Source: Phycisphaerae bacterium
GTDB lineage: Bacteria; Planctomycetota; Phycisphaerae; UBA1845; PWPN01
Length of the DNA stretch: 32,723 bases
Direction of reading: 5' to 3'
Assembly: GCA_016928855.1 (NCBI GenBank)
Contig: JAFGKA010000181.1
Coordinates: forward strand, 1 to 32,723
The translations under genes were made by a program, and so were the position numbers. The notes beneath the pieces are model-generated. The model was given only the letters and a program-made list of their open reading frames with translations. It had not been told where the DNA came from and did no database searches. This document shows positions 1-24,908 of the stretch, one piece after another. Within the stretch, counting starts at the first letter, position 1. Every line of letters begins with the position of its first letter.

Positions 1-3000
1 CGGCTGCTGATCGTGATCCATCACCTTGCTGTGGACGGTGTGTCGTGGCGCATTCTGCTCGAAGACCTATTTACGGCATACGGCCAGCTCGAAGCGCAGC
101 GCCCGGTCGAGTTGCCGGCGAAGACCACATCGTTTCGCGAATGGGCCCAGCGGCTCATCGAGCATGCCCGATCGGACGCGATGGAGGCGGAATCGCGATA
201 CTGGCTTGGCCTTGCGGAGGGTGCGGCCGACATGCTGCCGCTCGACCGTGAGGCCTGTCCGAACGACATGGCATCCGTTGAGACGGTTCGCGTCACGTTG
301 GACACGGACGAGACGCACGAGCTGTTGCACGAGGTGTCGGCCGCGTATCGGACACGGATCGACGAAGTGTTGCTGACGGCAGTGGTCCAGGCGTTCGGCG
401 AGTGGACCGGATGCGCGGCGCTCTGGCTGGATATCGAGGGTCACGGCCGTGAGGATCTGTTCGACGACGTCGATCTGGCTCGCACGGTCGGCTGGTTCAC
501 CACGATGTTTCCCGTGCGGTTCGACCTGAGCGACGCCGCGGGGCCGGGCGAAGCGATCAAGCATGTCAAGCAGCGGTGGCGCGACATCCCGCGCCACGGC
601 ATCGGTTTTGGCCTGCTGCGGTATCTACGGGGTGATGCGGAACTGGCCCAGCGGCTTGCGACGATCCGGCCGCAGGTGCGGTTCAACTACCTTGGCCAGC
701 TCGACGCCGGCATGCAGGGGTCGATGCCGCTCGCGATCGCGCCCGAATCGTTCGGCCCGCTTTCCGGATCGCGAAACACGCGGACGCACCTGTTGGACAT
801 CAACGCGGGCGTGACGGCCGGCCGGCTCGAGGTGGCCTGGACCTACAGCCGAAATCGGCATACGGTGGCGACGATCAATCGTCTTGCGGGCGCGTTTGTC
901 GACGCGCTGCGCACATTGATCGCCCATTGCCGTCGCCCCGATGTTGGCGGGTGCACGCCGTCGGACTTTCCGCTGGCGGCGCTCGATCAGGCCGCACTGG
1001 ATCAGCTCGTCGGCAACGGCCGGGCAATCGAAGACCTCTATCCGCTTTCACCGCTGCAGGCCGGTCTGTTGTTCCACAGCCGCTATGCGCCGGACTCGGC
1101 GGTGTACTTCTCGCAGTTCAGTTGCACGCTTGTCGGCGACTTCGATCCGGACGCGTATCGCGCCGCGTGGCAGCGGATCATCGATCGGCATCCGGTCTTG
1201 CGCACGAGCTTCACGTGGAAGCGCCTGAACGAACCACTACAGCTTGTCCATCGGCACGTACCGGTGGCGTGGACGCAGCATGATTGGCGTGACGTGCCGG
1301 CGGCTGAGCAGCCGGCCCGAATCGACGCATTCCTCGAAGCGGATCGGCAACGCGGCTTCGACCTCGACAAGCCGCCGCTGACGCGACTGGCGGTTCTGCG
1401 GCTCGCGGACGATGCGTGGCATATCGTCTCGACCAACCATCATCTGCTGCTCGACGGCTGGTCGTTGCCGATCATGATGACGGAGGTCATGGCGACGTAC
1501 GAAGGGCTTGTTCGGGGCCAGGAAGTTCCGTTGGATCCGCCCCGGCCGTATCGTGACTACATCCGGTGGCTGCGGGAGCAGGATCTTGCCGAGGCCGAAG
1601 CGTTCTGGCGCCGGATGCTCAAGGGCTTCGCGGCTCCGACGCCGTTGCCGGCGGCACGATCGGCCGGCGCTGTTGAGGCCGGGGCCATGGCTTCGTACAA
1701 CGGGCAGCTCTCCGAGGCAGCAACGGCGACGCTCGAGCAGTGGGCCCGTCGGCATCAGGTAACGCTCAATACGCTCGTGCAGGGCGCGTGGGCGATTCTG
1801 CTCAGCCGTTACAGCGGCGAGTCCGACATTGCGTTCGGCATGACCGTCTCCGGGCGATCCGTGCCGCTGGCGGGGATTGAAACGACGCCCGGCGTGTTCA
1901 TCAACACGTTGCCGGTGCGCGTGGCGGTCTCGGCCGATGTGGCGTTGCTGCCATGGCTGCATGCGCTGCAGTCGCAGCAGGCCGACCTGCGCCAGTTCGA
2001 GCACAGCCCGCTGGCGCAGGTGCAGCGGTGGAGCGATGTGCCGGCCGGGTTGCCGTTGTTCGAGAGCATCATCGTCTTTGAGAACTATCCTGTCGATCAG
2101 GCCCTGCGGCAGCGCGGTGCGAGCCTGGCGATTCGGGATGTGCGGCGGCATCTCGCCCGGACGAACTACCCGCTCGTGCTTGTCGTCGAGCCGGGCAAGT
2201 CGCTGCGATTCGAGATTGCGTACGACACCGGGCGTTTCGACGCGGCGACGATCGAGCGGTTGTTCGGTCATCTGCGGACACTCTTAGAGGCGATGACCGC
2301 CGACGGCGAGCCGTGTGTGGCTTCACTGCCGATGCTCACGCCACCGGAATATCAACAACTGATTGACGAATGGGGCCGCACGGCCGCGGCCGTCACGGCT
2401 TCGCACGACCGCGTGGCCGATGCAAATAGGGCGTGCATTCACCGTCGCTTCGAGGCGCAGGCCGCGCGGCGGCCCGACGCGGTGGCCGTAACCTGTGACG
2501 GCGAGCGCCTGTCGTACCGCCAGTTGAACGAGTGGGCCAATCGACTGGCCCACTACCTCGTGAGCGCCGGCGTCGGGCCGGAAACGCTCGTCGGCATCTG
2601 CCTCGAACGCTCACTCGACATGGTCGTTGCGATACTCGGCGTGATCAAGGCCGGTGGAGCATACGTGCCACTCGATCCGAGCTACCCGGCCGATCGACTT
2701 CAGTTCATGGTGGCCGACGCCCGGATGCCAGTCGTGGTCACCGTTGCGTCGCTCGCCGAGCGATTGTCGGCTCCCGGCGCCCGATGCGTGTGTCTGGACA
2801 CCGAAGCGGTGGCGATTGCTGCCTGTGTGAAGGTCGATCCGCCATCGGCTGTGGCGCCGGACAATGCGGCCTACGTGATCTATACGTCCGGCTCGACGGG
2901 CAAGCCCAAGGGCGTCGTCGTCACACATTGCAACGTCACCCGGCTTTTCGATGCGACCGAGGCATGGTTCGGCTTCGGCGCGGACGACGTATGGACGCTG

Positions 3001-5466
3001 TTCCATTCCTACGCTTTCGACTTCTCGGTCTGGGAGCTGTGGGGTGCCCTGTGTTACGGTGGGCGTCTGGTTGTCGTGCCGTTTGCCGTCAGCCGTTCGC
3101 CGGAGGCCTTCGCGGCACTGCTTCGAGCCGAAGGTGTGACCGTTCTGAATCAGACGCCGTCGGCGTTTGCAAGCCTGTTGCGTATTTCCGATGCGCTGCC
3201 CGCGCCGGCCGAGTCGGCGCTGCGCTTCGTGATCTTCGGCGGCGAGGCGCTCGACTTGCAAATGCTTCGCCCGTGGTTCGACCGCTACGGCGACGCACGG
3301 CCGCGAATGATCAACATGTACGGCATCACCGAGACGACCGTACACGTGACGTACCGTCCCATCACGCGGGCGGATCTTGACGCGGCCTCAGGCAGCATGA
3401 TCGGTCGGCCGATCCCCGATCTGCGGACGTACATCCTGGATGCTCATGGCCAGCCGGCGCCGGTGGGCGTGCCGGGTGAACTGCACGTCGGCGGCGCGGG
3501 GCTGGCACGCGGCTACCTCAATCGGCCGGACCTCACCACCGAGCGGTTCATCCCGAATCCGTTCCTTCGCCGCGACGGCGAGCGCCTGTACAAGACGGGC
3601 GATCTTTGCTGTTACCGGCCGGACGGCGATGTGGAGTACCTCGGTCGTATCGACGATCAGGTCAAGATCCGCGGCTTTCGCGTCGAACTCGGCGAGATTG
3701 AGACGGCGCTCGAGGAGCATCCGAACGTGCATGAGGCCGTCGTGCTCGCCCGGGCGACCGATACCGGCGAGAAGCGGCTGGTCGGTTACGTCGTTGCCGG
3801 CGACGACATTCCCGCCATCAGCGACTTGCGGCTGCGCCTCGCCGGGTGTCTGCCAGACTACATGGTGCCGTCTGCGTTCGTGTTCCTCGATGCGATTCCA
3901 CGACTGCCGAACGGCAAGATCGATCGAAAAGCCCTGCCGGCGCCCGACGCGGTACGGCCCGAGTTGACCGTCGGTTATGTTGCGCCGCGGAACGATCTGG
4001 AACGGTGCCTGGCCCAGGTGTGGTCGGCGGTGCTTGGCGTCGAACGCGTCGGCGTGATGGATGATTTCTTCGAACTTGGCGGCGATTCAATCGTGGCGGC
4101 CCGGCTCGTGTATCAGCTTGAAGAACACCTCGGCGAGGCCGTCTATCCGGTCGCGTTGTTTGAATCGCCGAACATCGCTGAACTGGCACAGTCGCTGGCG
4201 ACCGCCTATCCCGACACCATCACGGCCCGCTTCGGGACAGACGCGGTGCCCGTTGCCAGTGAGGTGGCGTCACCTGGTTTGCCCGGCTTCATGGCCCTTG
4301 CGGATCTGGCGGTCGAAGCGGTACTTGATCCCGCGATCCGGCCCGAAGCCGCCGCACGCGACGGCGGGCCGGCTACGGTGCTGCTGACCGGCGCGACCGG
4401 CTTCCTCGGCGCGTTCCTGCTGGCCGAGTGGCTTGAACAGACCACGGCCGAGGTGCACTGCCTCGTTCGCGCGGCCGATGATGACACTGCCGCCGCTCGT
4501 ATCGAGCGCACGCTTGAATCCTACGGAATCTGGAACGACGCGTTCCGGTCGCGCATCGTGCCCGTCGCTGGCGATCTGTCGAAGCCGCTTCTGGGGCTGT
4601 CGGCGGATCGGTTTGACGCGCTCGCTGAGACGCTCGACGTGATCGTACACAACGGCGCGTTGGTCAACTTCCTGCAGCCGTACGCGGCCCTGAAGACGCC
4701 GAATGTGCTCGGGACGCAGGAGGTCCTGCGCCTAGCTTGTCGTCACCACGCCAAGCCCGTGCACTACGTTTCGACGAGCTCGGTTTTCGCGACGCAGGAG
4801 CTGGCCGGCTGTGTCGTGTACGAAGCCGACAGCCCGGACAACATCGCCGGTTTGCGCGGCGGCTACGCGCAGAGCAAGTGGGTGGCCGAGAAGCTCGTAA
4901 CAATCGCCGAGGCCCGTGGTCTGCCTGTGGCGATCTACCGCCCGGGCCGCATCAGCGGTCACAGTCGGACCGGCGCATCCAACACGGACGACATGATGCT
5001 GCAACTGTTGCTCGGCTGTATCCGCATCGGTGCCGCGCCGGATCTCGACATGGAAGACGATATGGCGCCCGTGGATTACATCGCTCGTGCGATTGTCCAT
5101 TTCGCCTGCCGGTCGAACTCGTGTGGCAAGGCGTTCCATCTGGTCAATCCTCACCCGGTCCGTTGGGTGGATCTGCTCGAAGGGCTCGGTGCCTGCGGCT
5201 ACCCCGTGGCGTGCGTTTCGCTCGAACGGTGGCTCGATGCCTGGGGCGATGGCCAGGCCCCGGAACACCGCGCGTTTCAGCGAATGGCCCGGGCCTTCGT
5301 CGGTGCCGATCTGCCCCGCCTGCCACGCTTCGACTGCCGCAATACGCTTGACGGCCTTCGCGGAACGACGCTGAGTTGTCCGCCGGTCGACGCCGCACTT
5401 CTCAAGACGTATCTTGCCTACTGGACGCGCGCTGGTCTGCTGGAGCCGCCTACGGTTTCGGCCTGA
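1..5466 (+). CDS. NRPS C-terminal part: E-C-A(Thr)-PCP-thioester reductase (5' partial)
   Basis: The reading frame is open from base 1, so the start lies left of the window. The first domain is an epimerization domain, shown by HHLAVDGVSW (nt 19-48), IEGHGRE, VGWFTTMFPV and FNYLGQ. It makes the residue of the preceding, unseen module D-configured. A condensation domain starts near nt 1030 (YPLSPLQAGLLFHS, HHLLLDGW at 1438). The adenylation domain spans about 2430-3930, with YTSGSTGKPKG (2881), FDFSVWE (3016), NMYGITE (3313) and NGKIDRKALP (3910). Its specificity residues by alignment to GrsA are D-F-W-N-I-G-M-V-H, the established Thr code. The PCP serine is at 4087-4089 (LGGDS). From about 4370 there is a reductase domain of the NAD(P)H-dependent extended SDR type: TGATGFLG (4387), then Tyr 4864 and Lys 4876 in YAQSK. 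This domain releases the chain as an aldehyde or, after a second hydride transfer, an alcohol. The stop is 13 bp from the convergent thioesterase stop. Domain calls are strong; Thr is a prediction. Confidence 0.96.
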   Translation, partial: RLLIVIHHLAVDGVSWRILLEDLFTAYGQLEAQRPVELPAKTTSFREWAQRLIEHARSDAMEAESRYWLGLAEGAADMLPLDREACPNDMASVETVRVTLDTDETHELLHEVSAAYRTRIDEVLLTAVVQAFGEWTGCAALWLDIEGHGREDLFDDVDLARTVGWFTTMFPVRFDLSDAAGPGEAIKHVKQRWRDIPRHGIGFGLLRYLRGDAELAQRLATIRPQVRFNYLGQLDAGMQGSMPLAIAPESFGPLSGSRNTRTHLLDINAGVTAGRLEVAWTYSRNRHTVATINRLAGAFVDALRTLIAHCRRPDVGGCTPSDFPLAALDQAALDQLVGNGRAIEDLYPLSPLQAGLLFHSRYAPDSAVYFSQFSCTLVGDFDPDAYRAAWQRIIDRHPVLRTSFTWKRLNEPLQLVHRHVPVAWTQHDWRDVPAAEQPARIDAFLEADRQRGFDLDKPPLTRLAVLRLADDAWHIVSTNHHLLLDGWSLPIMMTEVMATYEGLVRGQEVPLDPPRPYRDYIRWLREQDLAEAEAFWRRMLKGFAAPTPLPAARSAGAVEAGAMASYNGQLSEAATATLEQWARRHQVTLNTLVQGAWAILLSRYSGESDIAFGMTVSGRSVPLAGIETTPGVFINTLPVRVAVSADVALLPWLHALQSQQADLRQFEHSPLAQVQRWSDVPAGLPLFESIIVFENYPVDQALRQRGASLAIRDVRRHLARTNYPLVLVVEPGKSLRFEIAYDTGRFDAATIERLFGHLRTLLEAMTADGEPCVASLPMLTPPEYQQLIDEWGRTAAAVTASHDRVADANRACIHRRFEAQAARRPDAVAVTCDGERLSYRQLNEWANRLAHYLVSAGVGPETLVGICLERSLDMVVAILGVIKAGGAYVPLDPSYPADRLQFMVADARMPVVVTVASLAERLSAPGARCVCLDTEAVAIAACVKVDPPSAVAPDNAAYVIYTSGSTGKPKGVVVTHCNVTRLFDATEAWFGFGADDVWTLFHSYAFDFSVWELWGALCYGGRLVVVPFAVSRSPEAFAALLRAEGVTVLNQTPSAFASLLRISDALPAPAESALRFVIFGGEALDLQMLRPWFDRYGDARPRMINMYGITETTVHVTYRPITRADLDAASGSMIGRPIPDLRTYILDAHGQPAPVGVPGELHVGGAGLARGYLNRPDLTTERFIPNPFLRRDGERLYKTGDLCCYRPDGDVEYLGRIDDQVKIRGFRVELGEIETALEEHPNVHEAVVLARATDTGEKRLVGYVVAGDDIPAISDLRLRLAGCLPDYMVPSAFVFLDAIPRLPNGKIDRKALPAPDAVRPELTVGYVAPRNDLERCLAQVWSAVLGVERVGVMDDFFELGGDSIVAARLVYQLEEHLGEAVYPVALFESPNIAELAQSLATAYPDTITARFGTDAVPVASEVASPGLPGFMALADLAVEAVLDPAIRPEAAARDGGPATVLLTGATGFLGAFLLAEWLEQTTAEVHCLVRAADDDTAAARIERTLESYGIWNDAFRSRIVPVAGDLSKPLLGLSADRFDALAETLDVIVHNGALVNFLQPYAALKTPNVLGTQEVLRLACRHHAKPVHYVSTSSVFATQELAGCVVYEADSPDNIAGLRGGYAQSKWVAEKLVTIAEARGLPVAIYRPGRISGHSRTGASNTDDMMLQLLLGCIRIGAAPDLDMEDDMAPVDYIARAIVHFACRSNSCGKAFHLVNPHPVRWVDLLEGLGACGYPVACVSLERWLDAWGDGQAPEHRAFQRMARAFVGADLPRLPRFDCRNTLDGLRGTTLSCPPVDAALLKTYLAYWTRAGLLEPPTVSA

Positions 5467-5479
5467 GTTCGCTGTGGGC

Positions 5480-6247
5480 CTATGGCTGGCCGGTCGGTGT
5501 GCATCGTGCCAGATCGTGCGCGAGTGCCTGGAGCAACAGCAGCCGATCCTCGTTCAGGAAGAAGTGTCCGCCCGGAAATATCCGCATCCGAAACGGTCCC
5601 GTCGTGTGTGCCCGCCACGCGGCGATATCCTCCTGGCCGACGGCCCAGTCCTTCGCGCCGCCGAACGCAGAGATCGGACAGGTCAACGGTTCCTCGGGCG
5701 TGTAGGTGTACGTATCGAGCAGCGTGAGATCCGCGCGCAGCACCGGCAGATAGAGCTTGAGCAGTTCCGCGTTTTGCAGCACCTCGGCCGGCATGCCGTC
5801 GTAGCGGACCGATAGCGCCTTGATGAACGCTTCGTCCGGCAGGTGATGGATCGGCGGGACCTGCACCAGTCGCTCCGGCGGCAGCACCGCGGCCAGGAAT
5901 ATGTGCGTTGGCTCCGGGCGGCCCTGCTGACGCAACCGCCGGGCCAACTCAAAGCTGAGCAGCCCGCCCATGCTGTGCCCGAAGAACGCGAACGGGATAT
6001 CCATGCAGGGTGCCAGCACCTCACCGAGCTTCGCCAGGAGCCGTGGTGCGTCGGTGTAGGCCGGTTCGCGGAGCCGGTTCTCCCGCCCGGGCAGTTGCAC
6101 GGGGCAGACATCCACATCAGCCGGCAACCCGCGAGCCCATGTGCGGTACGGCCCGGCCCCGCCGCCGGCAAACGGGAAGCAGAACAGGCGGATCCGGGCC
6201 TCCGGGTTCGGCTTGAGCGGCAGAAATCGGCTATCAAGTGGGTCCAT
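5480..6247 (-). CDS. type II (editing) thioesterase
   Basis: A 255-residue alpha/beta-hydrolase of the GrsT/TEII family. These cytosolic enzymes remove stalled or mis-primed acyl groups from carrier proteins of NRPS and PKS lines. Motifs: FCFPFAGGGAGPYRTW near the N-terminus, QLPGREN, the nucleophile elbow GHSMGG with Ser92, Asp200 in FGGAKDW, and His228 in FPGGH, which gives a complete Ser-Asp-His triad. The frame stays open to 6325, but ATG 6247 was chosen. It gives the family-typical N-terminus and has an AGGA ribosome-binding site at 6253-6256, 5 nt upstream. The gene lies between the NRPS (convergent) and PKS A (divergent), so it is transcribed alone. With two AT-less modules in the same cluster, clearing wrongly primed carriers may matter more than usual (inference). 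Confidence 0.95.
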   Translation of the reverse strand: MDPLDSRFLPLKPNPEARIRLFCFPFAGGGAGPYRTWARGLPADVDVCPVQLPGRENRLREPAYTDAPRLLAKLGEVLAPCMDIPFAFFGHSMGGLLSFELARRLRQQGRPEPTHIFLAAVLPPERLVQVPPIHHLPDEAFIKALSVRYDGMPAEVLQNAELLKLYLPVLRADLTLLDTYTYTPEEPLTCPISAFGGAKDWAVGQEDIAAWRAHTTGPFRMRIFPGGHFFLNEDRLLLLQALAHDLARCTPTGQP

Positions 6248-6721
6248 GTACGTCCTGTCAGAAACCGGGATTATCCCCTCCGTTCGGGGGGCGGGCAGTG
6301 TACCCCGCGCCCGGCACAAGGGCAAAATACGGCCTCCGCCCGGTCCGCCGAAGGGGCCGCTACGAGCAGTCGGGACGGGCAGGCCTGTGGGCCAGGGCGC
6401 GGAGGGGGCTGGCTGTGTCCGGCCCCCGTTGATCCTCCACCGCGGGCACGCCTCGGCAGCTCTGTGCCGGGGTGTATTTCATGCACTTTGCGGGCAGAAT
6501 CCCGGTTCCTTTGTGGCCGTCGTGCGGCTACAATGCGGCTTCACAAAATGAACGCGGTGTGCGGGCTTGGCGCGGCCCACGCCCGGAGACGGGCGAACAC
6601 TGGTAGCGGCACAGAGCGCGGATGCGATCGATGTTGTCGCGACGCCAGCTACGGTGGGGTACGTTATCCCCACACCGGCACATGGAGTACGGAAACGAAG
6701 CATGCGGACATCTCGGGACCC
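6248..6721. other. non-coding divergent intergenic region between thioesterase and PKS A
   Basis: About 470 bp between two divergent genes. A plus-strand frame stays open across it only because GC-rich DNA has few stop codons; no protein family signature is present in that frame. It holds the candidate thioesterase promoter (6297-6325). For PKS A there is a TACAAT -10-like hexamer at 6529-6534, without a good -35 at 16-18 bp. GGGATTATCCC near 6268 and a GGGGGC/GCCCCC pair (6404-6409 with 6422-6427) could base-pair, but both may be chance in this composition. No tRNA or small RNA gene was recognised. Confidence 0.6.
6297..6325 (-). promoter_or_regulatory. candidate sigma70-type promoter for the thioesterase
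   Basis: Read on the minus strand: TTGCCC (6325-6320), a 17-nt spacer, then TACACT (6302-6297). Each hexamer matches the consensus at 4 of 6 positions. The start of transcription would be about 40 nt before ATG 6247. This is moderate pattern evidence only. Confidence 0.35.
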
Positions 6722-9700
6722 ATGAGTAAGTTACATTTTCATGAAAGCGGGGAGGCCGAGCCGATTGCCGTCATCGGGATCGGTTGCCGATTCCCCGGGG
6801 CCGCCGACGTCGCGGCGTTCTGGCGATTGCTCCGCGACGGCCGTGACGCCATCACCGAGGTGCCCCCCGGCCGCTTCGATGCCGACTTCCTTGAATCCGC
6901 GCGGGTACCTGCGCGTCAGAAGGCGGCGCTGCGGTGGGGCGGCTTCGTCGACGGCGTCGATCAGTTCGATCCGTACTTCTTCGGCATCTCGCCGCGTGAG
7001 GCGGCCTTCATCGATCCGCAGCACCGCTTGCTTCTGGAAGCTGCTTGGGAAGCCCTGGAGGACGCCGGCCTGCCGCCGACCGGGCTTTCCGGCTCATCGA
7101 CGGGCGTCTTTGTCGGCTTGTCGTTCAACGACTATGAAGACTTGCTCTTCCGCCGGCATCGCCAACTCAATCTGCGCGTGACCTCCGGCGGAAGCCGCTT
7201 CAGCGCAGCCGGGCGTCTCTCGTTCTCTTTGAATCTCGAAGGCCCGAGCCTGATGACCGACACCGCCTGTTCCTCGTCGTTGACGGCGGTGCACTTGGCG
7301 TGTCAGAGCCTGCGGAATCGCGAGTGCACGCTGGCATTGGCCGGCGGCGTGAACCTGATCCTCCAGCCGCATGTCAATATCTGTCTGTCTCGCGGTGATG
7401 TGCTCGCGCCGGATGGCCACTGCAAGTTCGGCGATGCCCACGCTGACGGCTATGGGCGCAGCGAAGGTGTCGGCGTCGTCGTGCTCAAGCCTCTGGACGT
7501 GGCGTTGGCTGACGGCGACCCGATCTACGCCGTCATCCGGGGCAGTGCGGTCAATCACAAGGGCAATAAGGACGGCGGCATCGTCGCGCCCAGTCGCGAG
7601 AGCCTCGAACAGGTGATGCGGAGCGCTTTCGCCCAGGCCGGCCTCGCTCCCGCTTGTGCGCATTACATCGAGGCGCACGGCACCGGTACGGTCGTCGGTG
7701 ACCTGGCCGAGATCCCGGCGATTGGAGCCGTGGTGGCCGAAGGCCGACCCGCGGATCGGCCGTGCTGGATCGGTTCGGTCAAGACGAACATCGGTCATGC
7801 CGAATCAGCTTCCGGCATTGCCGCGTTGATCAAGGTTGCGCTGTGTTTCAAGCACGGGCAGATTCCGCCAAGCCTGCACTTCCACGAGCCTAATCCGGAG
7901 ATTCCGTGGGAGGCGCTGCCGGTGCGAATGATCACGCAGTCGCAGGCCTGGCCCGGCGAGCCTGGGCCGTTCTTCGTGGGAATCAACAACTTCGGGATCT
8001 CGGGCACCAATGCGCACGTCGTGCTGGCCTCGCCGCCGTTGCCGGCCGTTTCGCGCGAGTGCCGCGGGCCGCAGTTGCTGTGTCTTTCGGCCAGGACTGA
8101 GCCCGCGGTGCGCGCCTTGGCGGGGCAATACGCCGATCATCTTGAATCGCACGCGGACGTGTCGCTGGCGGATGTGTGCTTTATGGCGGGCGCGGGCCGT
8201 TCACATTTCGCGCACCGCGTGGCGGTCGTTGCTGATTCGATCGACCGCCTGCGCGACGCGCTGCGTTCATTCGCCGCGGGGCGTGCCGCGGAAGGGTGCG
8301 TCGGCGGAACAGCGGAGACCGCCGATTCGGGTGTTGCAGTTATGCCACGAATCGACGACCCGAATCGGGCATCGCAATTGACGGATCTCGCACGCGCGTA
8401 CGTGGGCGGCGCCACGCTGGACTGGGCCGCCGTGCAGGCGGGCGGGGTTGGGCGGTGTCACGGTCTGCCGACGTATCCGTTCGAGCGGCGGCGGTACTGG
8501 GTTTCGCCGGAGGCCCCGGTGCGATCGTCTGCACGAGAACCCGTGGTTCGATCCGAGTGGCTTTACGAGCTGCAGTGGGAGCCCCGCCGGCAGGCGAAGC
8601 GTGAGGCGGCACCGCCGGCGGCGGTGGCTGAACGCGTCGAAGGCGGTGCACGGCATCGTGACCTGACGGGCGCGATGGCCGTGTACGAATCACTCGTGCC
8701 CGAACTCGACGCCCTCAGCGTGGCGTACGTACTGGAGGCGTTCGAGGATCTCGGCTGGGCGCTGGTGATCGGCGAGCGTTTCTCGGTGGCGGAGCGGATC
8801 GAGCGGCTGGGCATCGTGCCGGCGCATCATCGGTTGTTCGCCCGGCTCGTTGGGATCCTGGCCGAAGCCGGGTTGGTTCGTGCTGCCGATGACACATGGC
8901 ATGTCGTTCGCGAGCCGGATTGGACGCAGGCCGAATCGCACCGCGCGGGCTTGCTGGAGATGTATCCGTCATGCAGTGCCGAATTCGACTTGCTCGGCCG
9001 ATGCGGCATACGGCTGGCGGATGTGTTGCGCGGCCGCTGCAGCCCGCTGGATCTGTTGTTTCCAAACGGCTCGTTGGCCGAACTCGAGACGTTCTATGAG
9101 CGGGCACCGTTCGCGCGGGCAGCGAACGGATTGGTTTGCGAGTCGCTTGCGCACATCCTTGCGGAATGGCCGGCCGATCGTCCGATCCGGATTCTGGAAC
9201 TTGGCGCCGGCACCGGGGCGACAACGGCGGGCGTATTGCCGATGGTGCCGGCCGGTCGGACGGAATATGTCTTTACTGACGTTTCCCCGCTGTTTGCGAA
9301 ACAGGCGCAGCGCAAGTTTGCCGCATGCGCATTTGTCGAATACGGCCTGCTCGACGTCGAGTGTGATCCGGCGACACAGGGCTTCGCGGAGCGCCAATTC
9401 GACGTCGTGCTCGCCGCGAATGTGCTGCATGCGACGGCGGATCTGCGGCAGACCCTGCGGCATGTGCGTTCGTTGGTGGCGCCTGGCGGCTGGCTGATGC
9501 TTTCGGAGGTTACCTCGCGGCCGCGCTGGGCAGACCTGATCTTTGGCCTGACCGAAGGCTGGTGGAAGTTCACGGATCACGATCTGCGGCCCGACTACCC
9601 ATTGTTGGATTCGGCGACGTGGTTGCGGGTGCTGGCTGAGACGAGTCTCAGCACGCCGGCGGCCGTGCGGGCCGGCAATGCGGCGTTTGACCAATCGGTC

Positions 9701-12700
9701 TTGTTGGCGCGGGCGGCGGCGGGCGAGAGTCGCCACTGGCTGTTCTTTGCCGATCAAGGCGGCGTGGCCGCGGCTACGGCGTCGCGTCTGCGCGAGCAGG
9801 GCGACGTGTGTACGCTGGTCCACGCGGCCGGGCAATGCCAAGACACCACAACCGACGAACGGACGATCGATCCCCACCGGTCCGAACAATACGATGCGCT
9901 CATGCAGGCGACGGCGGCGGGTTCTGCCGGGCCGGTACACGTTGCCTATTTCTGGGGCCTTGATGTGCCGTCGTCCGAAGAGCTCAACAGCGAATCGCTG
10001 GATGCCGCGTATGCGCTTGGCTGTTGTGGTGCGCTTCGCGCGATGCAGGCGATGCAGCGTTGCGAAGGGCCGCGCGCGGGTCGCCTGTGGCTCGTGACAC
10101 GCGGCGCGCAGGCCGTTCGTCGGGCCGAGCGGTTGTCCACGGCCCAGGCGCCCTTGTGGGGCTTCGGGCGTACCGTGGCGTTGGAGGAGCCGACGCGATG
10201 GGGGGGCCTGGTCGATCTGGACGCCGACGCGGTGGTGGAGATGAACGCGGCGGCGCTGGCGAGCGAACTGACCGCGCCGGATGGCGAGGACCAGACGGCC
10301 TGGCGTAACGGCCATCGCTTCGTGGCGAGGCTGCTCCCGCGCGAGGTGAAGCCGGCCGTCGCCGAGCCGCTGCGCCTCCGGGTCGATGCGAGTTACCTGA
10401 TCACCGGCGGGCTCGGGCGGCTCGGCCTGCTCGTGGCGCGGTGGCTGGTCGATTGTGGCGCACGCCACCTTGTGCTGATGCAACGAAGCGCGCCAACCGA
10501 CGCGGCCGGTGCCGTACTGCGTACATTCGAGGCGGCCGGCGTGCGTGTGCACGTCGTACAGGGCGACGTGGCCTGCACGGCAGACGTCGAGCGGCTATTC
10601 GACGAGATTCGTGGGAATCTGCCACCGTTGCGGGGCGTTGTGCACGCGGCCGGTGTGACGCGGTTCGATGCGCTGACCGATATGTCCGCCGAATCGCTGG
10701 AGGCCGTGCTGCGGCCCAAGTGTGCCGGCGCGTGGAACCTGCATCGGGCGACGCAGCGATGCGAGCTGGATTTCTTCGTACTGTTCTCTTCGGCGGCGGC
10801 GATCTGGGGTTCGCGGCACATGGCGCATTACGCGGCGGCGAATCACTTCCTCGACGCACTGGCACACGAGCGCCGTGCGAACGGCCTGCCGGCACTGAGT
10901 GTCAACTGGGCGCGGCTTTCCGAGCGCGGGATGCAGTCGGCCGAATTGGAGACGTCGCTGGCCCGTATCGGCATCGAGGCGATTCCGACCGAAGCGGCGT
11001 TCACGGTGCTGGGCGAGCTGATCCGCGAGAATGCAGTGCAGGCTATCTGCGCCGACGTCGATTGGGCGCGATTCAGGCCAGTCTTTCAGGCGAAGATGCG
11101 GCGGCCCTTGCTCGACCGCATCGTTGTTGCGCCGGCTGAAAGCGAGGCGGTGGCCGATGTGCCTGCGCCGGCGTTGAAGGAGTCCCTGGTGTTCGGCTCC
11201 ATGGCTGAACGGCGGTCAACGCTGGTTAACCACATTCGGGCCGAAGTGGCGGATGTGCTCGGATTCGACGAGGACCATCCCGTCGATGTGCGACGCGGAT
11301 TCTTCGAACTCGGCATGGATTCGCTGACGGCGGTCGAGCTGAAAGGCCGCCTGGAGAGGGCGACGGGGCAGACCTTCGCCTCGTCGTTGCTTTTCGAACA
11401 TTCAACGATCGAACAACTGGCAGATGCCATCGCGCAGGGACTGACCGGTGGGGATGTTGCTCCACGGATATCCGCGTCGCCCACCCGGTTCGCTGGCGAG
11501 GAGGGAGCGTCGGATTCAATCGCGATCATCGGCATGGGCTGTCGCTTCCCCGGTGGTGTGGCCGATCCGGACGCGTTCTGGGACTTGCTTCGGGCCGGTG
11601 GCGATGCGGTCGCTGAGATCACGCCACAGCGGTTGGCGCTCGGCGTCTTTGGCGACGCCAGCGCCGACACGCCAGGGGGGCAGCGGGGCGGTTTCCTGAC
11701 GGATATCGAATGGTTCGACGCCGATTTCTTCGGCATCGCGCCGCGCGAAGCGGCGCACATGGATCCCCAACAGCGTCTGTTACTCGAAGTGGGCTCAGAA
11801 GCGCTCGAACGCGCCGGCGTGGCGTCCGACACGCTTGCCGGAAGCCGAACGGGTGTGTTCATCGGCCTGACCGCGAACGACTATCGCCAGGTGTTGACGC
11901 GTGCCAGTCGGCCGGACGATCTGACCGGTCATGCGTTGATGGGCCACGCGCTCAACGCCGCGGCTGGGCGCTTATCCTACTTCCTCGGCCTGCACGGCCC
12001 GAGTTTGGTCGTAGATACCGCGTGTTCGTCGTCGCTGGTCGCGGTGCATCTCGCGTGTCAGAGCCTGCGGACCGGAGAATGCCGGATGGCATTGGCCGGC
12101 GGGGCGAATGTCATTCTCTCGTCGGACATGACCTCTGTGGCCTCGCGTACGAATCTGCTGTCGCCGGAAGGACGATGCAAGACCTTCGATGCGTCGGCCG
12201 ATGGGTTCGTGCGCAGCGAAGGCTGCGGTATTGTTGTGCTCAAACGACTGGCTGATGCTCTGGCCGACGGCGATGGGGTGCTGGCGATCATCTGTGGTTC
12301 GGCGGTTAATCAGGATGGGCCCAGCAGTGGATTCACCGTGCCGAATGGTGCGGCGCAACAGGCGTTGATCCGCGATGCGCTAGCCAATGCCCACGCCGAG
12401 CCTGCGCAGATCGGCTACGTCGAGGCGCACGGCACCGGCACATCGCTCGGCGATCCGATCGAGGTGCGGGCGCTTGCGGGCGTTTTCCGAGGCAGTCGGC
12501 CGGCGGATTGGCCACTGCACATCGGCTCGGTCAAGACGAATATCGGCCACGCCGAGTCTGCCGCCGGCATCGCCGGGCTGATGAAGGTTGTGCTGATGTT
12601 GCAGCACGGCGAGATTCCGCCGCACTTGCATCTGCGACAGGTAAACCCCGAAATCGATCTGGACGCGATGCCGGCAGTCGTTCCAACGACATGCACGCCG

Positions 12701-15700
12701 TGGCCGGTCGACGACAGGCCGCGACTGGCCGGCGTCAGCGCCTTCGGTGCCAGTGGGACGAATGCCCACGTAATCCTGGAACAAGCTCCATCGCTCGTCC
12801 CGGTTCCAGAGGGCAACCCGTCCGCTTCGGAACTGCTTTGCATTTCCGCGCGAACCGAGTCGGCGCTATGCGCCCTGGCCGGCCGTTACGCCATGTATCT
12901 CGAATGTCACCCGGACGTGCCGTTGGAGGCCATCTGCTTCACGGCGAACACCGGCCGGCGCCACTTCGAGCATCGGCTGGCGATCGTGGCAACTTCGCGC
13001 GATGATCTGCGCCAACGCCTTGCCGCATTTGCCGACGGGAAGGGTGGACCACAAGAGGCCGTAGGTCAGGTCAACAGCCTCGACGTCCACGGGCCGTTGC
13101 CTTGCGAGTCATGCGACCGTAAGAGGCACTTGGAACAAACGGCCGAAGCCTACGCTGCCGGCGCTTCAATCGACTGGTCATTGGTGTATGGCGATGCGCG
13201 GTTTCCGCGCGTCCCGCTGCCGACGTATCCATTCGAACGCGAGCGATTGTGGGTAGACGGCCTGCCGGTGGGGCAGTCGGTGCGGGGCGCGGGTCGCGCC
13301 GATGACGTGCACCCGTTGCTGGGACGACGGGTGCGATCCGCCTCGGGCGAGCACCGATTCCAGGCCGTGTTGAGACCTTCGCGGCCGGCGTATCTGGCGG
13401 ATCATCACGTCGGCGATCTGGCGCTGTTCCCCGCGGCCGGGTACGTCGAGATGGCGTTGGCAGCGGCTGGGCAGGTTTTCGCCGGGGATTCGGTCCAGGT
13501 CACGGGGCTTCGGCTGCACGCACCGCTGCCGCTGGAAGACGGCTCGGCGCGTGCGGTAGAGATGACTGTTCGCCCCCGCAGCCCGGATGAAGCGGATTTT
13601 GAGATTCGAAGCGTTGTCGCTGATGTACTGAACCATGGTGCCGCTTGGACGCTTCATGTGTCCGGCATGATCCGTTCGACACCGATGGATCTCGACGGTC
13701 CGCGCCATGTGTCCTATGCCGAGCGACGGGCAGATTGTCCGCAGACGCTTGCTGCCGATGCGTTCTATCGCGACCTCGACGCAAAGGGGCTGGGATTCGG
13801 TCCGGCATTTCGCGGGCTGCATCGCGTCTGGGTCGGCCACGGGCAGAGTCTGGCGCTGGTCAATCTGCCCGCATCGCTGCAACACGAGGCTGACGCGTAT
13901 CGGATCCATCCGGTGCTCCTGGATGCGTGCTGGCAGGCGGCCGGCGTACTGTTGCATGAGTCGCGTCACGGGGCAGAGGCCGTGCCTGTTGCGGTCGGCG
14001 TGGATGAATTCCGCCTGTTCGCCCCAGCCGGTCAACGGCTCTACAGCCACGTCGTTCGCCATGACGACAGTCAGGCTGAGTCCGATGAGGCGGTCTTCGA
14101 CGCGACTCTATTCACCGAGAGCGGCCGGATCATTGCAGAAACATGCGGGCTTCACTTGAAGTTCGTCGCCGCGCCGCGCGTCGAGTCCGCGGACGCCACG
14201 GATGTCAACGAGCTTCTGTACGCCGTGCAGTGGGAGCCGTCGGCCGCCACACCTTCTGCATCGTTGCCGGCAGGGCGGTGGCTGATCTTCGCGGACAAAG
14301 GCGGTGTCGCTGCCGCGCTGGCGACGCGCATGGAGGCGAGCGGATCGCGTGTGATCTGCGTGCGGCCCGGTCAACGGTACGGTCAGACAGGCGCAGGCGA
14401 ATGGGAGATCGATCCGGCGAAGCCCGATGACGTCGCGAGGCTGCTTGAGGAAATTGGCATTTCCAGCACCGACCCCATTGTTGGCGTCGTGTATCTATGG
14501 GCGATCGATCTGGCGGTGGAAGTAGAGCCGACGACGGTAACGCTCGAATCTGGCCAGGCGATGGTGTGCGGCGGTGCCCTGCACCTGGTGCAGGCGATGA
14601 TAAGCGCGAACCTGTCGCCGGTCGCCGGTCTGTGGTTGGCTACCCTCGCCGCCCAGTCGGTGGACGTGGAGTTCGGTCGGGCGAACGTGGCGCAGGCGCC
14701 GCTCTGGGGCTTCGGCCGCGTGCTTGCGTCGGAGCATCCCGAGTTGCACAGCCGGCTGATCGACCTCGACGCGGACCTTGACGCGGGCGTCGTGGCAGCC
14801 GCACTCGTGATGGCTCTGCGGGCCGATGATGGCGAAGATCAGGTCGCTCATCGTGCGGGGAACCGATACGTTGCGCGCTTGGTTCGCTCCGGACCCCCGG
14901 CGGTGCCGCGCGAGCCGACGTGCATGCGCGCCGACGGCACGTACCTCATTACGGGCGGCCTCGGCGGTCTCGGTCAGGCGGTCGCCCGCTGGCTCGTCGA
15001 ACGCGGCGCCCGTCACCTTGTACTGATGGGGCGTGGCGGTCCGTCGGAAGCCGCGCGGGACATGCTGCGCGAACTCGAAGCTGCCGGTGCCCATGTCCGG
15101 GTCCTGCGTGGCGACGTGGCTCGCGAGGCCGATGTGTGGCGAGTGCTGTCGGAGATCGGCGCGGCGATGCCGGCATTGTGCGGCGTCATCCATGCGGCGG
15201 GTGTGCTCGACGATGGCGTGCTCGTCCACCAGAGCTGGGAGCGGTTCGCGACGGTTATGGCGCCGAAAGTGTTTGGCGCGTGGAACCTGCATCGACTTAC
15301 GGCCGATCGACCGCTCGACTTCTTCGTCCTGTTCTCATCCGCCGTCGGCCTGCTCGGCTCGGCCGGCCAGGCGAATCATGCTGCTGCCTCGGTCTTCCTC
15401 GACGCGCTGGCTCAGTACCGCCGGAAGCAAGGCCTTCCCGCTCTGAGTTTGGACTGGGGTGCCTGGGGTGACGTCGGCGCGGTGGTCAACCAGGACGTGG
15501 GCGGCTGGATGGCGCGTCGCGGCGTCGGCATCATCGCGCCACAGCAGGCCCTGGCGGCCCTGGGGTACCTTATGCAGGCCGACAGCCCGCCGCAGGTTGG
15601 CGTGTTGCGGATCGACTGGCAGACATTTCTGGAACCGGTATCCTTGGGGGCGGGCTCGTCCCTGTTGCGCGGCCTGCGCGAGGCGGCTCCGAGCGTGCTC

Positions 15701-16156
15701 GCGGAAGCGGCGTGCCCGTCGGCGTTCCTGGAGCGTTTGCGTGCATCGCCCGCACGGCAGCGCAAGGAGTTGCTGCACGGCCACGTTCGGGCGATGACGG
15801 CGAAGGCGCTCGGTCTTGGCGCGGACCGGCCGATCGATCCGAAACGGCCCCTGAAGGAGATGGGGCTCGATTCGCTGCTGGCGATCGAGCTGCGCAAGGC
15901 GCTGGCGACGAGCCTGGACTGTACGTTACCGGCAACGTTGCTGTTCAACTGCCCAACGGTTGAGGCGTTGGGCGAACACCTGGCGGCGCTGTTGCTGAGG
16001 CCCGGTGCGGCGGAGCCCCCACCAGGGCCGGCGCTGCAACACCATGCGGCCGGCCAAAGCGTGCGGGCCGAGGAACTCGGGGCGCTGTCGGAAGCCGAAC
16101 TCGAGCGGCTCCTGATCGAGAAACTGAATGCCATGCAAGAGAGGCGGAGTGAATGA
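6722..16156 (+). CDS. PKS A: two modules, KS-[AT deleted]-cMT-KR-ACP and KS-[AT deleted]-DH-KR-ACP
   Basis: A 3144-residue type I PKS. ATG 6722 was chosen because the KS begins 12 residues later (EPIAVIGIGCRFPG). Module 1: KS residues 13-437 with Cys183, His319 and His359; no AT; C-methyltransferase with SAM motif ELGAGTG (826-832); KR from about 1222 with Tyr1370, Trp1362 (WGS) and no LDD, which is A-type; ACP Ser1534 (GMDSL). Module 2: KS from 1598 with Cys1768, His1903 and His1943; no AT; DH from 2197 with His2228 and Asp2401 (DACWQ); KR from 2741 with LDD (B-type) but His2886 where the catalytic Tyr is expected; ACP Ser3051. Between each KS and the downstream LPTYPFER motif there are about 130-150 residues of linker instead of about 430. 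There is no loading domain and no N-terminal docking helix. A short charged C-terminal helix precedes the 4-bp ATGA overlap with PKS B. By architecture, module 1 adds an alpha-methyl beta-hydroxy unit and module 2 an unbranched alkene. Confidence 0.96.
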   Translation: MSKLHFHESGEAEPIAVIGIGCRFPGAADVAAFWRLLRDGRDAITEVPPGRFDADFLESARVPARQKAALRWGGFVDGVDQFDPYFFGISPREAAFIDPQHRLLLEAAWEALEDAGLPPTGLSGSSTGVFVGLSFNDYEDLLFRRHRQLNLRVTSGGSRFSAAGRLSFSLNLEGPSLMTDTACSSSLTAVHLACQSLRNRECTLALAGGVNLILQPHVNICLSRGDVLAPDGHCKFGDAHADGYGRSEGVGVVVLKPLDVALADGDPIYAVIRGSAVNHKGNKDGGIVAPSRESLEQVMRSAFAQAGLAPACAHYIEAHGTGTVVGDLAEIPAIGAVVAEGRPADRPCWIGSVKTNIGHAESASGIAALIKVALCFKHGQIPPSLHFHEPNPEIPWEALPVRMITQSQAWPGEPGPFFVGINNFGISGTNAHVVLASPPLPAVSRECRGPQLLCLSARTEPAVRALAGQYADHLESHADVSLADVCFMAGAGRSHFAHRVAVVADSIDRLRDALRSFAAGRAAEGCVGGTAETADSGVAVMPRIDDPNRASQLTDLARAYVGGATLDWAAVQAGGVGRCHGLPTYPFERRRYWVSPEAPVRSSAREPVVRSEWLYELQWEPRRQAKREAAPPAAVAERVEGGARHRDLTGAMAVYESLVPELDALSVAYVLEAFEDLGWALVIGERFSVAERIERLGIVPAHHRLFARLVGILAEAGLVRAADDTWHVVREPDWTQAESHRAGLLEMYPSCSAEFDLLGRCGIRLADVLRGRCSPLDLLFPNGSLAELETFYERAPFARAANGLVCESLAHILAEWPADRPIRILELGAGTGATTAGVLPMVPAGRTEYVFTDVSPLFAKQAQRKFAACAFVEYGLLDVECDPATQGFAERQFDVVLAANVLHATADLRQTLRHVRSLVAPGGWLMLSEVTSRPRWADLIFGLTEGWWKFTDHDLRPDYPLLDSATWLRVLAETSLSTPAAVRAGNAAFDQSVLLARAAAGESRHWLFFADQGGVAAATASRLREQGDVCTLVHAAGQCQDTTTDERTIDPHRSEQYDALMQATAAGSAGPVHVAYFWGLDVPSSEELNSESLDAAYALGCCGALRAMQAMQRCEGPRAGRLWLVTRGAQAVRRAERLSTAQAPLWGFGRTVALEEPTRWGGLVDLDADAVVEMNAAALASELTAPDGEDQTAWRNGHRFVARLLPREVKPAVAEPLRLRVDASYLITGGLGRLGLLVARWLVDCGARHLVLMQRSAPTDAAGAVLRTFEAAGVRVHVVQGDVACTADVERLFDEIRGNLPPLRGVVHAAGVTRFDALTDMSAESLEAVLRPKCAGAWNLHRATQRCELDFFVLFSSAAAIWGSRHMAHYAAANHFLDALAHERRANGLPALSVNWARLSERGMQSAELETSLARIGIEAIPTEAAFTVLGELIRENAVQAICADVDWARFRPVFQAKMRRPLLDRIVVAPAESEAVADVPAPALKESLVFGSMAERRSTLVNHIRAEVADVLGFDEDHPVDVRRGFFELGMDSLTAVELKGRLERATGQTFASSLLFEHSTIEQLADAIAQGLTGGDVAPRISASPTRFAGEEGASDSIAIIGMGCRFPGGVADPDAFWDLLRAGGDAVAEITPQRLALGVFGDASADTPGGQRGGFLTDIEWFDADFFGIAPREAAHMDPQQRLLLEVGSEALERAGVASDTLAGSRTGVFIGLTANDYRQVLTRASRPDDLTGHALMGHALNAAAGRLSYFLGLHGPSLVVDTACSSSLVAVHLACQSLRTGECRMALAGGANVILSSDMTSVASRTNLLSPEGRCKTFDASADGFVRSEGCGIVVLKRLADALADGDGVLAIICGSAVNQDGPSSGFTVPNGAAQQALIRDALANAHAEPAQIGYVEAHGTGTSLGDPIEVRALAGVFRGSRPADWPLHIGSVKTNIGHAESAAGIAGLMKVVLMLQHGEIPPHLHLRQVNPEIDLDAMPAVVPTTCTPWPVDDRPRLAGVSAFGASGTNAHVILEQAPSLVPVPEGNPSASELLCISARTESALCALAGRYAMYLECHPDVPLEAICFTANTGRRHFEHRLAIVATSRDDLRQRLAAFADGKGGPQEAVGQVNSLDVHGPLPCESCDRKRHLEQTAEAYAAGASIDWSLVYGDARFPRVPLPTYPFERERLWVDGLPVGQSVRGAGRADDVHPLLGRRVRSASGEHRFQAVLRPSRPAYLADHHVGDLALFPAAGYVEMALAAAGQVFAGDSVQVTGLRLHAPLPLEDGSARAVEMTVRPRSPDEADFEIRSVVADVLNHGAAWTLHVSGMIRSTPMDLDGPRHVSYAERRADCPQTLAADAFYRDLDAKGLGFGPAFRGLHRVWVGHGQSLALVNLPASLQHEADAYRIHPVLLDACWQAAGVLLHESRHGAEAVPVAVGVDEFRLFAPAGQRLYSHVVRHDDSQAESDEAVFDATLFTESGRIIAETCGLHLKFVAAPRVESADATDVNELLYAVQWEPSAATPSASLPAGRWLIFADKGGVAAALATRMEASGSRVICVRPGQRYGQTGAGEWEIDPAKPDDVARLLEEIGISSTDPIVGVVYLWAIDLAVEVEPTTVTLESGQAMVCGGALHLVQAMISANLSPVAGLWLATLAAQSVDVEFGRANVAQAPLWGFGRVLASEHPELHSRLIDLDADLDAGVVAAALVMALRADDGEDQVAHRAGNRYVARLVRSGPPAVPREPTCMRADGTYLITGGLGGLGQAVARWLVERGARHLVLMGRGGPSEAARDMLRELEAAGAHVRVLRGDVAREADVWRVLSEIGAAMPALCGVIHAAGVLDDGVLVHQSWERFATVMAPKVFGAWNLHRLTADRPLDFFVLFSSAVGLLGSAGQANHAAASVFLDALAQYRRKQGLPALSLDWGAWGDVGAVVNQDVGGWMARRGVGIIAPQQALAALGYLMQADSPPQVGVLRIDWQTFLEPVSLGAGSSLLRGLREAAPSVLAEAACPSAFLERLRASPARQRKELLHGHVRAMTAKALGLGADRPIDPKRPLKEMGLDSLLAIELRKALATSLDCTLPATLLFNCPTVEALGEHLAALLLRPGAAEPPPGPALQHHAAGQSVRAEELGALSEAELERLLIEKLNAMQERRSE
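8077..8500 (+). other. AT-excised KS-to-KR linker, module 1 of PKS A
   Basis: The segment begins with the usual KS-AT linker (LCLSARTEPAVRALA, then RSHFAHRVAVVADS). It runs directly into the post-AT linker (LTDLARAYVGGATLDW, then LPTYPFERRRYW at residues 582-593). The roughly 300-residue AT core found in PKS B between the matching linkers (TGQGSQ, GHSIGE, HAFH) is absent. The join lies around 8281-8380. Confidence 0.9.
12832..13254 (+). other. AT-excised KS-to-DH linker, module 2 of PKS A
   Basis: The layout matches module 1. LLCISARTESALCALAGRY and HFEHRLAIVATS are followed by a join of about 33 residues (around 13039-13140), then EAYAAGASIDWSLV and LPTYPFERERLW (residues 2166-2177). No GHSxGE, TGQGSQ or HAFH is present. 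The join sequence differs from that of module 1. Confidence 0.9.
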
Positions 16157-19100
16157 GTTGTAGTCCATCCAAGAACGGCGACGAGCAATCTCCTCTGTTG
16201 CGGGCTTACCTCGCGATCGAGGCGCTGGAGAAACAGCTTGAGGCGACGCGCCGCGCCGGCAGTGAGCCGATCGCGATCGTTGGCATGGCATGCCGGTTCC
16301 CCGGCGGCGTGGCCGATCCGGAGGCGTTCTGGCGTCTGATGCGCGACGGGATCGACGCCGTCACGGAGGTGCCGCCGAGCCGGTGGGACGTCGACGCCTA
16401 CTACGATCCCGACCCTGACGCGGCTGGCAAGATGTACACCCGGCACATGAGCTATGTGCACGATATCGACCGCTTCGACGCGCCGTTCTTCGGCATCGCG
16501 CCACGCGAGGCAATCACGATGGACCCGCAGCAACGCCTCATGCTCGAGGTGGCCTGGGAGGCCCTTGAGCACGCGGGCCAGGCCCCCGACAAACTTGCGG
16601 GAACGAACACCGGCGTATTCATGGGTGTCGGCCACAACGATCATTCACGCCTGATGATCAAGTTCGACGATCCGGCCAGTGTCGAGTTGCACACGGGCTC
16701 GGGCAGCGCGTGCAGTATCGCCACGGGCCGCATCGCGTACACGCTGGGGCTGCGGGGTCCGACGATGTCCGTCGATACGGCGTGCTCTTCCGCGCTGGTC
16801 GTTACGCACCTTGCATGCCAGGCGCTGCGTGCCGGCGAGTGTGACGTCGCGCTGGCCGGCGGCGTCAACATCGTGCTGTCGCCGATCTCGACGATCATCG
16901 CGTGCAAGATGCGCATGCTCTCATCCGACGGCCACTGCAAGACCTTTGACGCGTCGGCGAACGGCTTCGTCCGCGGCGAGGGCTGCGGCATCGTCGTGCT
17001 CAAACGCCTGTCCGATGCCATCAAGAACCGCGATCGCATTCTCGCACTGATTCGCGGTTCCGCGGTCAATCAGGATGGTCGCAGCACGGGCCTGACCGTC
17101 CCGAACGGTCCGGCCCAGGAGGTGTTGATCCGGCGTGCACTGGCCGTCGCCGGGGTCGAGCCGGCGGATGTGGATTACATCGAGGCGCACGGCACGGGTA
17201 CGTCCTTGGGCGATCCGATCGAGTTGCAGGCGCTGGGCTCGGTCTTCTGCCAGCACCGCTCGAAGGACAAGCCGCTCCTCGTCGGGTCGGTCAAGACGAA
17301 CATTGGCCATCTGGAGACGGCGGCCGGCGCTGCGGGCCTGATCAAGGTCATCCTGGCGATGCAACATGGCGAAATCCCGCGGCACCTGCACTTCGAGACA
17401 CCGAACCCGCTCATCGACTGGGACGCCTGGCCGATCACCGTGCCGACCGAATCGGTGCCGTGGCCGGCGGGCCAGCAGCCCCGTCGTGCGGGGGTTAGCT
17501 CTTTCGGCTTCAGCGGAACCAACGCGCACCTCGTCGTCGAGGAAGCGCCCGAAATCGAAATCCCGGCCGCCGAGGTCGATCGTCCCGTGCATGTGCTGGC
17601 CCTTTCCGCGAAGACCGAACCGGCTTTGCGCGACATGGCCGGGCGCTATGCCGACTATTTCGCCGCGAATCCGGATGCTTGCTTGGCGGATGTCGGCTTC
17701 ACGGCTAATGCCGGCCGCTCGCATTTCGCGCATCGGCTGGCGATGGTCGCCGGTTCGGCCGCGGAGCTGCAAGGCCGCCTCGCCGCGTTTGCCGCCGGTG
17801 AGAAGGCCTCGGACCTCGTCGAAGGCCACTGCCCGGTTGGCCATCGGCCGAAGGTCGCGTTTCTGTTTACCGGCCAGGGCAGCCAATACGCCGGCATGGC
17901 GCGCGAGTTGTACGAAACCCAGCCGACGTTCCGCAAGATCCTCGACGAATGCGACGCTTACCTGCGGCCGCACCTGGATCGTCCGCTGCTCGCGTTACTG
18001 TTCGACAACGACGCGGAGCAGCACCTGCGCGAGACGGTCTATCAGCAGCCGGCGTTGTTTGCATTGGAGTACGCGTTGGCGTCGTTGTGGCGGGCGTGGG
18101 GCGTCGAGCCGGCCGCGTGTCTCGGGCACAGTATCGGCGAAGTTGCGGCGGCCTGTTTCGCGGGCGTCTTTACGCTGGCCGACGGCCTGGAATTGATTGC
18201 CGCACGTGCACGCCTGATGCACGGTTGCCCGGGCTCTGGCGCGATGGCGTCGGTGTTCGCCGACGCGGATCGGGTGGAGGCAGCGATCCGCGGCCAGTCC
18301 GGTGCCGTCACAATCGCGGCGTACAACGGACCGGAACACACGGTCATCTCGGGCGCCCCGAAGGCGGTTGAGGCCGTCCTGGCCGCACTGGCGGCCGACG
18401 GCGTCCGTGCGCAGGCGTTGCCTGTCTCGCATGCCTTCCATTCTGCGTTGATGGAACCGATGCTCGGCGAGTTCGAGCGCATCGTGGCGAAGGTGACCTA
18501 TCGCCCGGCGGAGGTGTCGCTGATCTCGAACGTGACCGGCAAGCTGGCCGCCGACGACGAAATCGGTTCGGCGGCGTACTGGTGCGACCACATCCGCCGC
18601 CCCGTTCGCTTTCTGGATGGGATGCGGGCGCTGGTGGACGAAGGTACGGGACTCTTTCTCGAAGTCGGTCCTGGTGCGACACTGCTCGGCATGGGCCGCC
18701 AATGTGTCGATCGCGGCGGTCGCGTATGGCTCAATTCCCTGCGCAAGGGCCAGTCCGACTGGAAGCAGATGCTGCAGAGCCTCACTCGCCTCTACACGCA
18801 GGGTGTGGACATCGATTGGGCCGGCTTTGACAGCGATTATCCGCGGCGTCGCCTGGCGCTGCCGACCTATCCGTTCCAGAGTGAACAGTACTGGATGGAA
18901 GCGTCGGAGGCTCGGCGAAAGGCGGGTTTGCAGACTTCACCAACCTCACGTCGCGTGTTGCATCCGTTGCTTGGGTGTCGGCTGCGATCCGCGCTGCGCG
19001 ACGTGCAGTTCGAGTCGGCCCTGACTGCAACGAGTCCGGAATTCCTCACCGACCACCGCGTTCATGGCATGGTGATCCTCGCCGGCGCAGCTTATCTCGA

Positions 19101-24809: not shown

Positions 24810-24908
24810 AGGAGCAGCATATTGGGTTAAAACGCAACGTGCGCCGGGCTCCGGCCGTCGAAGCTCAGCGGGCACTGGCGGCGCATTCGCCAGTGTCTCC
24901 GGTCGCCG

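Follow-up and report, generated by a model that had tools for sequence, protein, structure and literature searches.

The stretch analysed here (the window; 32,723 nucleotides) is an entire contig, C281 of the 606-contig assembly G000 of a Phycisphaerae bacterium, and it opens with the 3' part of a gene for a nonribosomal peptide synthetase (NRPS) whose last module ends in a thioester reductase (R) domain. The open reading frame at 1-5466 (+) starts at the contig edge and stays open for 1821 codons. Pfam recovers from it, in this order: the end of an epimerization (E) domain, a condensation (C) domain, an adenylation (A) domain, a peptidyl carrier protein (PCP) and the R domain. The matches are far above chance: Condensation in two stretches, one of them the partial E domain (6.8e-153), AMP-binding (2.5e-97), PP-binding (6.2e-14) and NAD_binding_4 (1e-73). 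Folding of the 3' end of the gene gave nothing beyond what shuffled sequences give. The terminal module is real and intact; its A-PCP-R part (2449-5463), which closes the E-C-A-PCP-R gene, matches the coordinates 2430-5466 at which the original prediction, made from the letters of the sequence, had placed a module releasing a C-terminal threoninal or threoninol. The evidence assembled below favours reductive release of an acylated dipeptide ending in threonine, the alcohol being the likelier form.

The 5' part of the gene was found on another contig of the assembly, C303 (4410 bp). Its last 87 bases repeat the opening 87 of the window exactly, and this stretch occurs in the whole assembly only at the ends of these two contigs; given an overlap that is both exact and unique, the join is almost certainly correct. 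The E domain is split across the contigs (PF00668 positions 2-158 on C303, 133-440 in the window), and the joined gene encodes a protein of 3072 residues, starting with MQDERPE, with the order C-A1-PCP-E-C-A2(Thr)-PCP-R. The original prediction had thus described a genuine module but had seen only the tail of a two-module NRPS. The joined protein retains LGGDS intact at each carrier site, HHLAVDGV in the E domain and HHLLLDGW in the second C domain; the first C domain reads HHIAIDFW, the usual Gly after the Asp being replaced. Upstream of the NRPS start, C303 carries the end of another frame (L026, 3877-4410 (-)), a truncated, degenerate AMP-binding fragment of 24.6 bits, below the cut-off, that is without the YGPTE motif, the C-terminal subdomain or a PCP and looks like a decayed module or the result of a frameshift. 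A search of the assembly found no contig that attaches to the upstream end of C303. The window contig is no obvious contaminant and belongs to the genome, since it holds the assembly's only copy of RecO, which is 39-52% identical to that of relatives from the same family and order. The assembly yielded no 16S gene; PF07596, a family typical of Planctomycetota, has two matches in it, one of them above the cut-off, and none in 14 controls, which only hints at that phylum.

The R domain scores 362.3 bits with the NCBIfam thioester reductase model TIGR01746 (cut-off 213.35) and 248 bits with PF07993 (cut-off 20.1). It was aligned with four R domains of solved structure: MxaA, 8v1x, a carboxylic acid reductase (CAR) and the mycobacterial Nrp. 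The NADPH motif (TGATGFLG, 4387-4410) and the catalytic triad, formed by the Thr of YVST (motif at 4765, codon at 4774) and the Tyr and Lys of GGYAQSK (motif at 4858-4878, codons at 4864 and 4876), align with those of all four, C-terminal to the PCP. The best structure match is MxaA (4u7w; phmmer E 6.7e-104), with 49% identity over 350 columns. At the position of Asp998 of SrCAR the window domain has Gly (codon at 4945), as do MxaA and Nrp; three CARs have Asp. Two more specific identities were rejected: that of a CAR, because the equivalog NF041592 stays below its cut-off (229.7 bits vs 1300) and C and E domains precede A-PCP-R, and that of the aureusimine synthetase AusA, because NF047350 does so as well (622.8 bits vs 2500) and the NRPS starts with a C domain, not with A-PCP. 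A PCP and a full reductase with TGATGFLG and YxxxK do follow the A domain, as had been claimed, and the Tyr whose loss would fit a Dieckmann-type domain is in place. The alignment of NADPH motif and triad with solved structures makes non-reductive (Dieckmann) release unlikely, and release is very probably reductive, judging from these motifs.

The code of A2, read by alignment and with the Lys517 position included, is DFWNIGMVHK. It has been assigned to Thr in the zeamine cluster (domain A5; PMC3547906) and a survey of 2051 A domains groups it with those of Thr type and also ties it to N-methylated or otherwise altered Thr (PMC12283262); no methyltransferase domain was found in the terminal NRPS module. 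The Thr code D-F-W-N-I-G-M-V-H of the original prediction is confirmed by the alignment and both papers, and judged by the code, Thr is very probably the substrate of A2. For A1, on C303, the code is DAENIGTIIK, for which the literature searched gave no published match. Arg codes commonly share its Glu239, as do some Orn codes (PMC12283262), from which one might weakly guess that residue 1 is basic.

The C domain after the E domain (HHLAVDGVSW) carries a YPLSPLQxGLLFH motif. Such a motif marks D-accepting C domains, and the residue before threonine is predicted to be in the D form. The D-residue claimed earlier therefore stands as a prediction, but its pairing with a reductive terminus, thought uncommon, is not very rare: the order E-C-A-T-R (T being the carrier domain) occurs in one relative from the same phylum (L062) and E-C-(A)-T-R, with a degenerate A domain, in two Burkholderiales genomes (L024 and L025).

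The genes that follow the NRPS gene (Table 1) include two large polyketide synthase (PKS) proteins. The likely start of the first is the ATG at 6722; the listed frame start at 5843 is not the gene start. Both of its modules are without AT but keep KS-AT linker remnants, and the next protein has a cis malonyl-type AT, which makes the pair a line of mixed cis/trans-AT type. Contig C231 holds the one further full-length AT domain found in the assembly, and two partial matches lie elsewhere; the same contig (L027, 1-8386) carries a second, separate type I PKS, a KS-AT that is open to the contig end, together with a short-chain dehydrogenase (SDR) and a condensation-like protein. In the region of the KR catalytic Tyr, PKS modules 2 and 3 read NHAAAS (15377) and NHAAAN (23185), with His where YAAAN is usual, and module 1 reads YAAAN. 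Tailoring of the aldehyde or alcohol is a possible role of the SDR in the window.

Table 1. Features of the window, with positions, strand and the evidence for each
Feature	Position	Strand	Evidence and remarks
E domain, C-terminal part (HHLAVDGVSW)	1..1020	+	PF00668 partial, TIGR01720; start of domain on contig C303 (L026)
C domain of terminal module (HHLLLDGW), probably D-accepting	1030..2400	+	PF00668, motif, position after E
A domain A2, code D-F-W-N-I-G-M-V-H-K (Thr)	2449..3936	+	PF00501 2.5e-97; code by alignment; PMC3547906
Peptidyl carrier protein (FFELGGDS)	3976..4200	+	PF00550; LGGDS
Thioester reductase (R) domain plus stop	4366..5466	+	PF07993, TIGR01746, phmmer to MxaA 4u7w, alignment
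Stand-alone type II thioesterase, convergent	5480..6265	-	PF00975 1.9e-46
PKS KS-(no AT)-cMT-KR-ACP-KS-(no AT)-DH-KR-ACP	6722..16156	+	Pfam, phmmer architecture
PKS KS-AT(malonyl-type HAFH)-DH-cMT-ER-KR-ACP	16153..23961	+	Pfam, phmmer architecture, AT motifs GHSIGE/HAFH
Short-chain dehydrogenase	23970..24815	-	PF00106 9.7e-53
4'-phosphopantetheinyl transferase	26801..27571	-	PF01648 5.6e-20; HetI-like below cut-off

Since the NRPS begins with a C domain, residue 1 should be acylated, and no acyl source other than the PKS was seen on C303 or the window contig. The second PKS protein is most likely the donor of the acyl chain to the N-terminal C domain, and that the PKS feeds the NRPS is the more probable arrangement. 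We propose the following pathway: the N-terminal C domain would take the acyl chain, most likely the methyl-branched polyketide of the two downstream PKS proteins, onto residue 1; the E domain would invert this residue; the second C domain would join the acyl-D-residue to L-Thr on the last PCP; and the R domain would bind NADPH and, with Thr, Tyr and Lys, reduce the thioester to acyl-D-Xaa-L-threoninal and then, probably, reduce the threoninal again to threoninol. This release chemistry and the architecture, combined with an end that is more likely the alcohol, give the best explanation of the locus, to which we assign a probability of about 0.65; the domain order, the join, the motifs and the code are observed, and the substrate, the transfer from PKS to NRPS and the number of hydride transfers are inferred.

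The Thr code and the intact triad uphold a threoninal or threoninol end as such, and between the two the alcohol is favoured by about two to one, since the nearest characterised relative MxaA forms an alcohol, the gate residue is Gly as in MxaA and Nrp, and the title of Chhabra 2012 (cited in PMC11659414) calls the R domains of mycobacterial NRPSs [2+2]-electron enzymes. Gahloth et al. reportedly found in 2017 that an Asp-to-Gly change at the SrCAR Asp998 position lets a CAR take the aldehyde on to the alcohol. Myxalamid is named among the primary-alcohol products (PMC2835699). If instead the R domain stopped after one hydride transfer, free acyl-D-Xaa-threoninal might act as a protease or proteasome inhibitor. 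This use needs the free aldehyde and is less likely if the alcohol is made, as the closest characterised relative (PMC2835699) and the gate Gly suggest; moreover, the nearby SDR could also reduce a freed aldehyde, and neither a protease target nor a resistance gene was found. We regard this as a minority possibility, and would grade the wider case of a retained aldehyde alike, whether it stays free as an electrophile or closes onto the side-chain amine of a basic residue 1 to give a cyclic imine. Nostocyclopeptides are a known case of a released aldehyde going on to an imine. Tilivalline is another (PMC7586950), and the Glu239 of the A1 code, shared with many Arg and some Orn codes (PMC12283262), would suit such an intramolecular capture; but the A1 code is without a match in the literature searched, no cyclisation enzyme was seen and the ring formed from a dipeptide aldehyde would be small, so that we consider the imine improbable. 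Least probable of all, and very much so, is a redox-inactive R* domain that would form a tetramic acid by Dieckmann-type cyclisation of the chain: such domains share the fold family and the same place in the line, but here the NADPH motif and Tyr/Lys are intact in the alignment with MxaA, Nrp, CAR and 8v1x, and the reaction needs a beta-ketoacyl group beside the last residue, where in this NRPS an amino acid precedes Thr.

Several points weigh against the PKS-fed, threoninol-releasing line that we prefer. The NRPS gene lies upstream of the PKS genes, so that the proposed transfer is not colinear; C303 begins in the degenerate A-domain fragment, and a protein further upstream could be the acyl donor; and an assembly of 606 contigs leaves a small risk of a wrong C303 join. 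The nearest relative and the gate Gly agree on MxaA-type alcohol release, but the prediction draws on this one neighbour and one residue and the clade around MxaA is weakly supported in the tree, so that they are not decisive. Even the R domain of a CAR can over-reduce (PMC10168641), and what decides between release as aldehyde or as alcohol is described as unexplored (PMC2835699), a question for which the Gly-or-Asp position here could serve as a test case of a predictor.

A scan of 392 genomes of the phylum recovered R domains of this type from 19, that of the window included (E <= 1e-35); among 200 closer relatives, just one further genome had such a domain (E <= 1e-40). Terminal A codes were readable in seven other loci of the phylum and none was that of Thr; Thr as the reduced residue is therefore unmatched in this small survey, and the D-residue context is matched. 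No relevant report of a nonribosomal product with a threonine aldehyde (threoninal) or threoninol was found in the open papers searched, most subscription journals lying outside the search. The chemistry is known, and none of the sources checked had this substrate combination. The locus predicts a small product from an uncultured lineage, N-acyl-D-Xaa-threoninol or -threoninal, and should the aldehyde persist, it would, as a threonine aldehyde, be unusual among electrophiles.

Known systems share parts of this arrangement. The A5 domain of the zeamine NRPS (Zmn16/17) has the identical code, DFWNIGMVHK, assigned to Thr (PMC3547906), but is followed by a Val module and PKS, whereas the A2 module ends in an R domain. 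Synthetases of the AusA type and the ATRed of X. indica release aldehydes through an R domain (PMC7586950), as in the first product proposed here, but their first residue keeps a free amine that closes a pyrazinone or pyrazine; the window NRPS has an N-terminal C domain, and the acylated first residue expected from it argues against this route. The NRPS of G214 (L062), from the same phylum, ends in T-E-C-A-T-R like that of the window, but has three modules and a terminal code, DTEDIGTIVK, that is not that of Thr. Among the genome contigs searched, the nearest named relatives of the R domain (41-46% identical) are in Pelomonas, Mitsuaria and Variovorax clusters (L023, L024, L025, L072), which resemble the window in having a PKS and the order C-A*-T-E, C-A*-T-R (L023 reaches only T-R). 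The cluster of Pelomonas sp. BJYL3 is colinear (FAAL-ACP, KS-AT-DH-KR-ACP, DH-KR-ACP, C-A*-T-E, C-A*-T-R), and this lends support to an NRPS of this sort being fed by a PKS; that of Variovorax has the last three proteins of this order. The A domains in these clusters are degenerate and go unrecognised, and a stand-alone AMP ligase lies close by, whereas the A domains of the window NRPS are intact. In Pelomonas and Variovorax (L024 6902-11347 and L025 7292-11278 with their upstream genes; L072 4987-6489), C, T, E and R are retained in both NRPS modules; the A domains are not recognised by Pfam in L024 and leave only a short N-terminal fragment in L025. As Pelomonas has a stand-alone AMP ligase and FAAL-ACP upstream, its modules are possibly loaded in trans. 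MxaA, the myxalamid synthase (terminal module, PDB 4u7w), like the window NRPS frees a PKS-NRPS hybrid product through an R domain with the same catalytic residues and gate Gly. Its product ends in alaninol attached straight to the polyketide; the system described here differs in that a pair of NRPS modules, separated by an E domain, leads to Thr.
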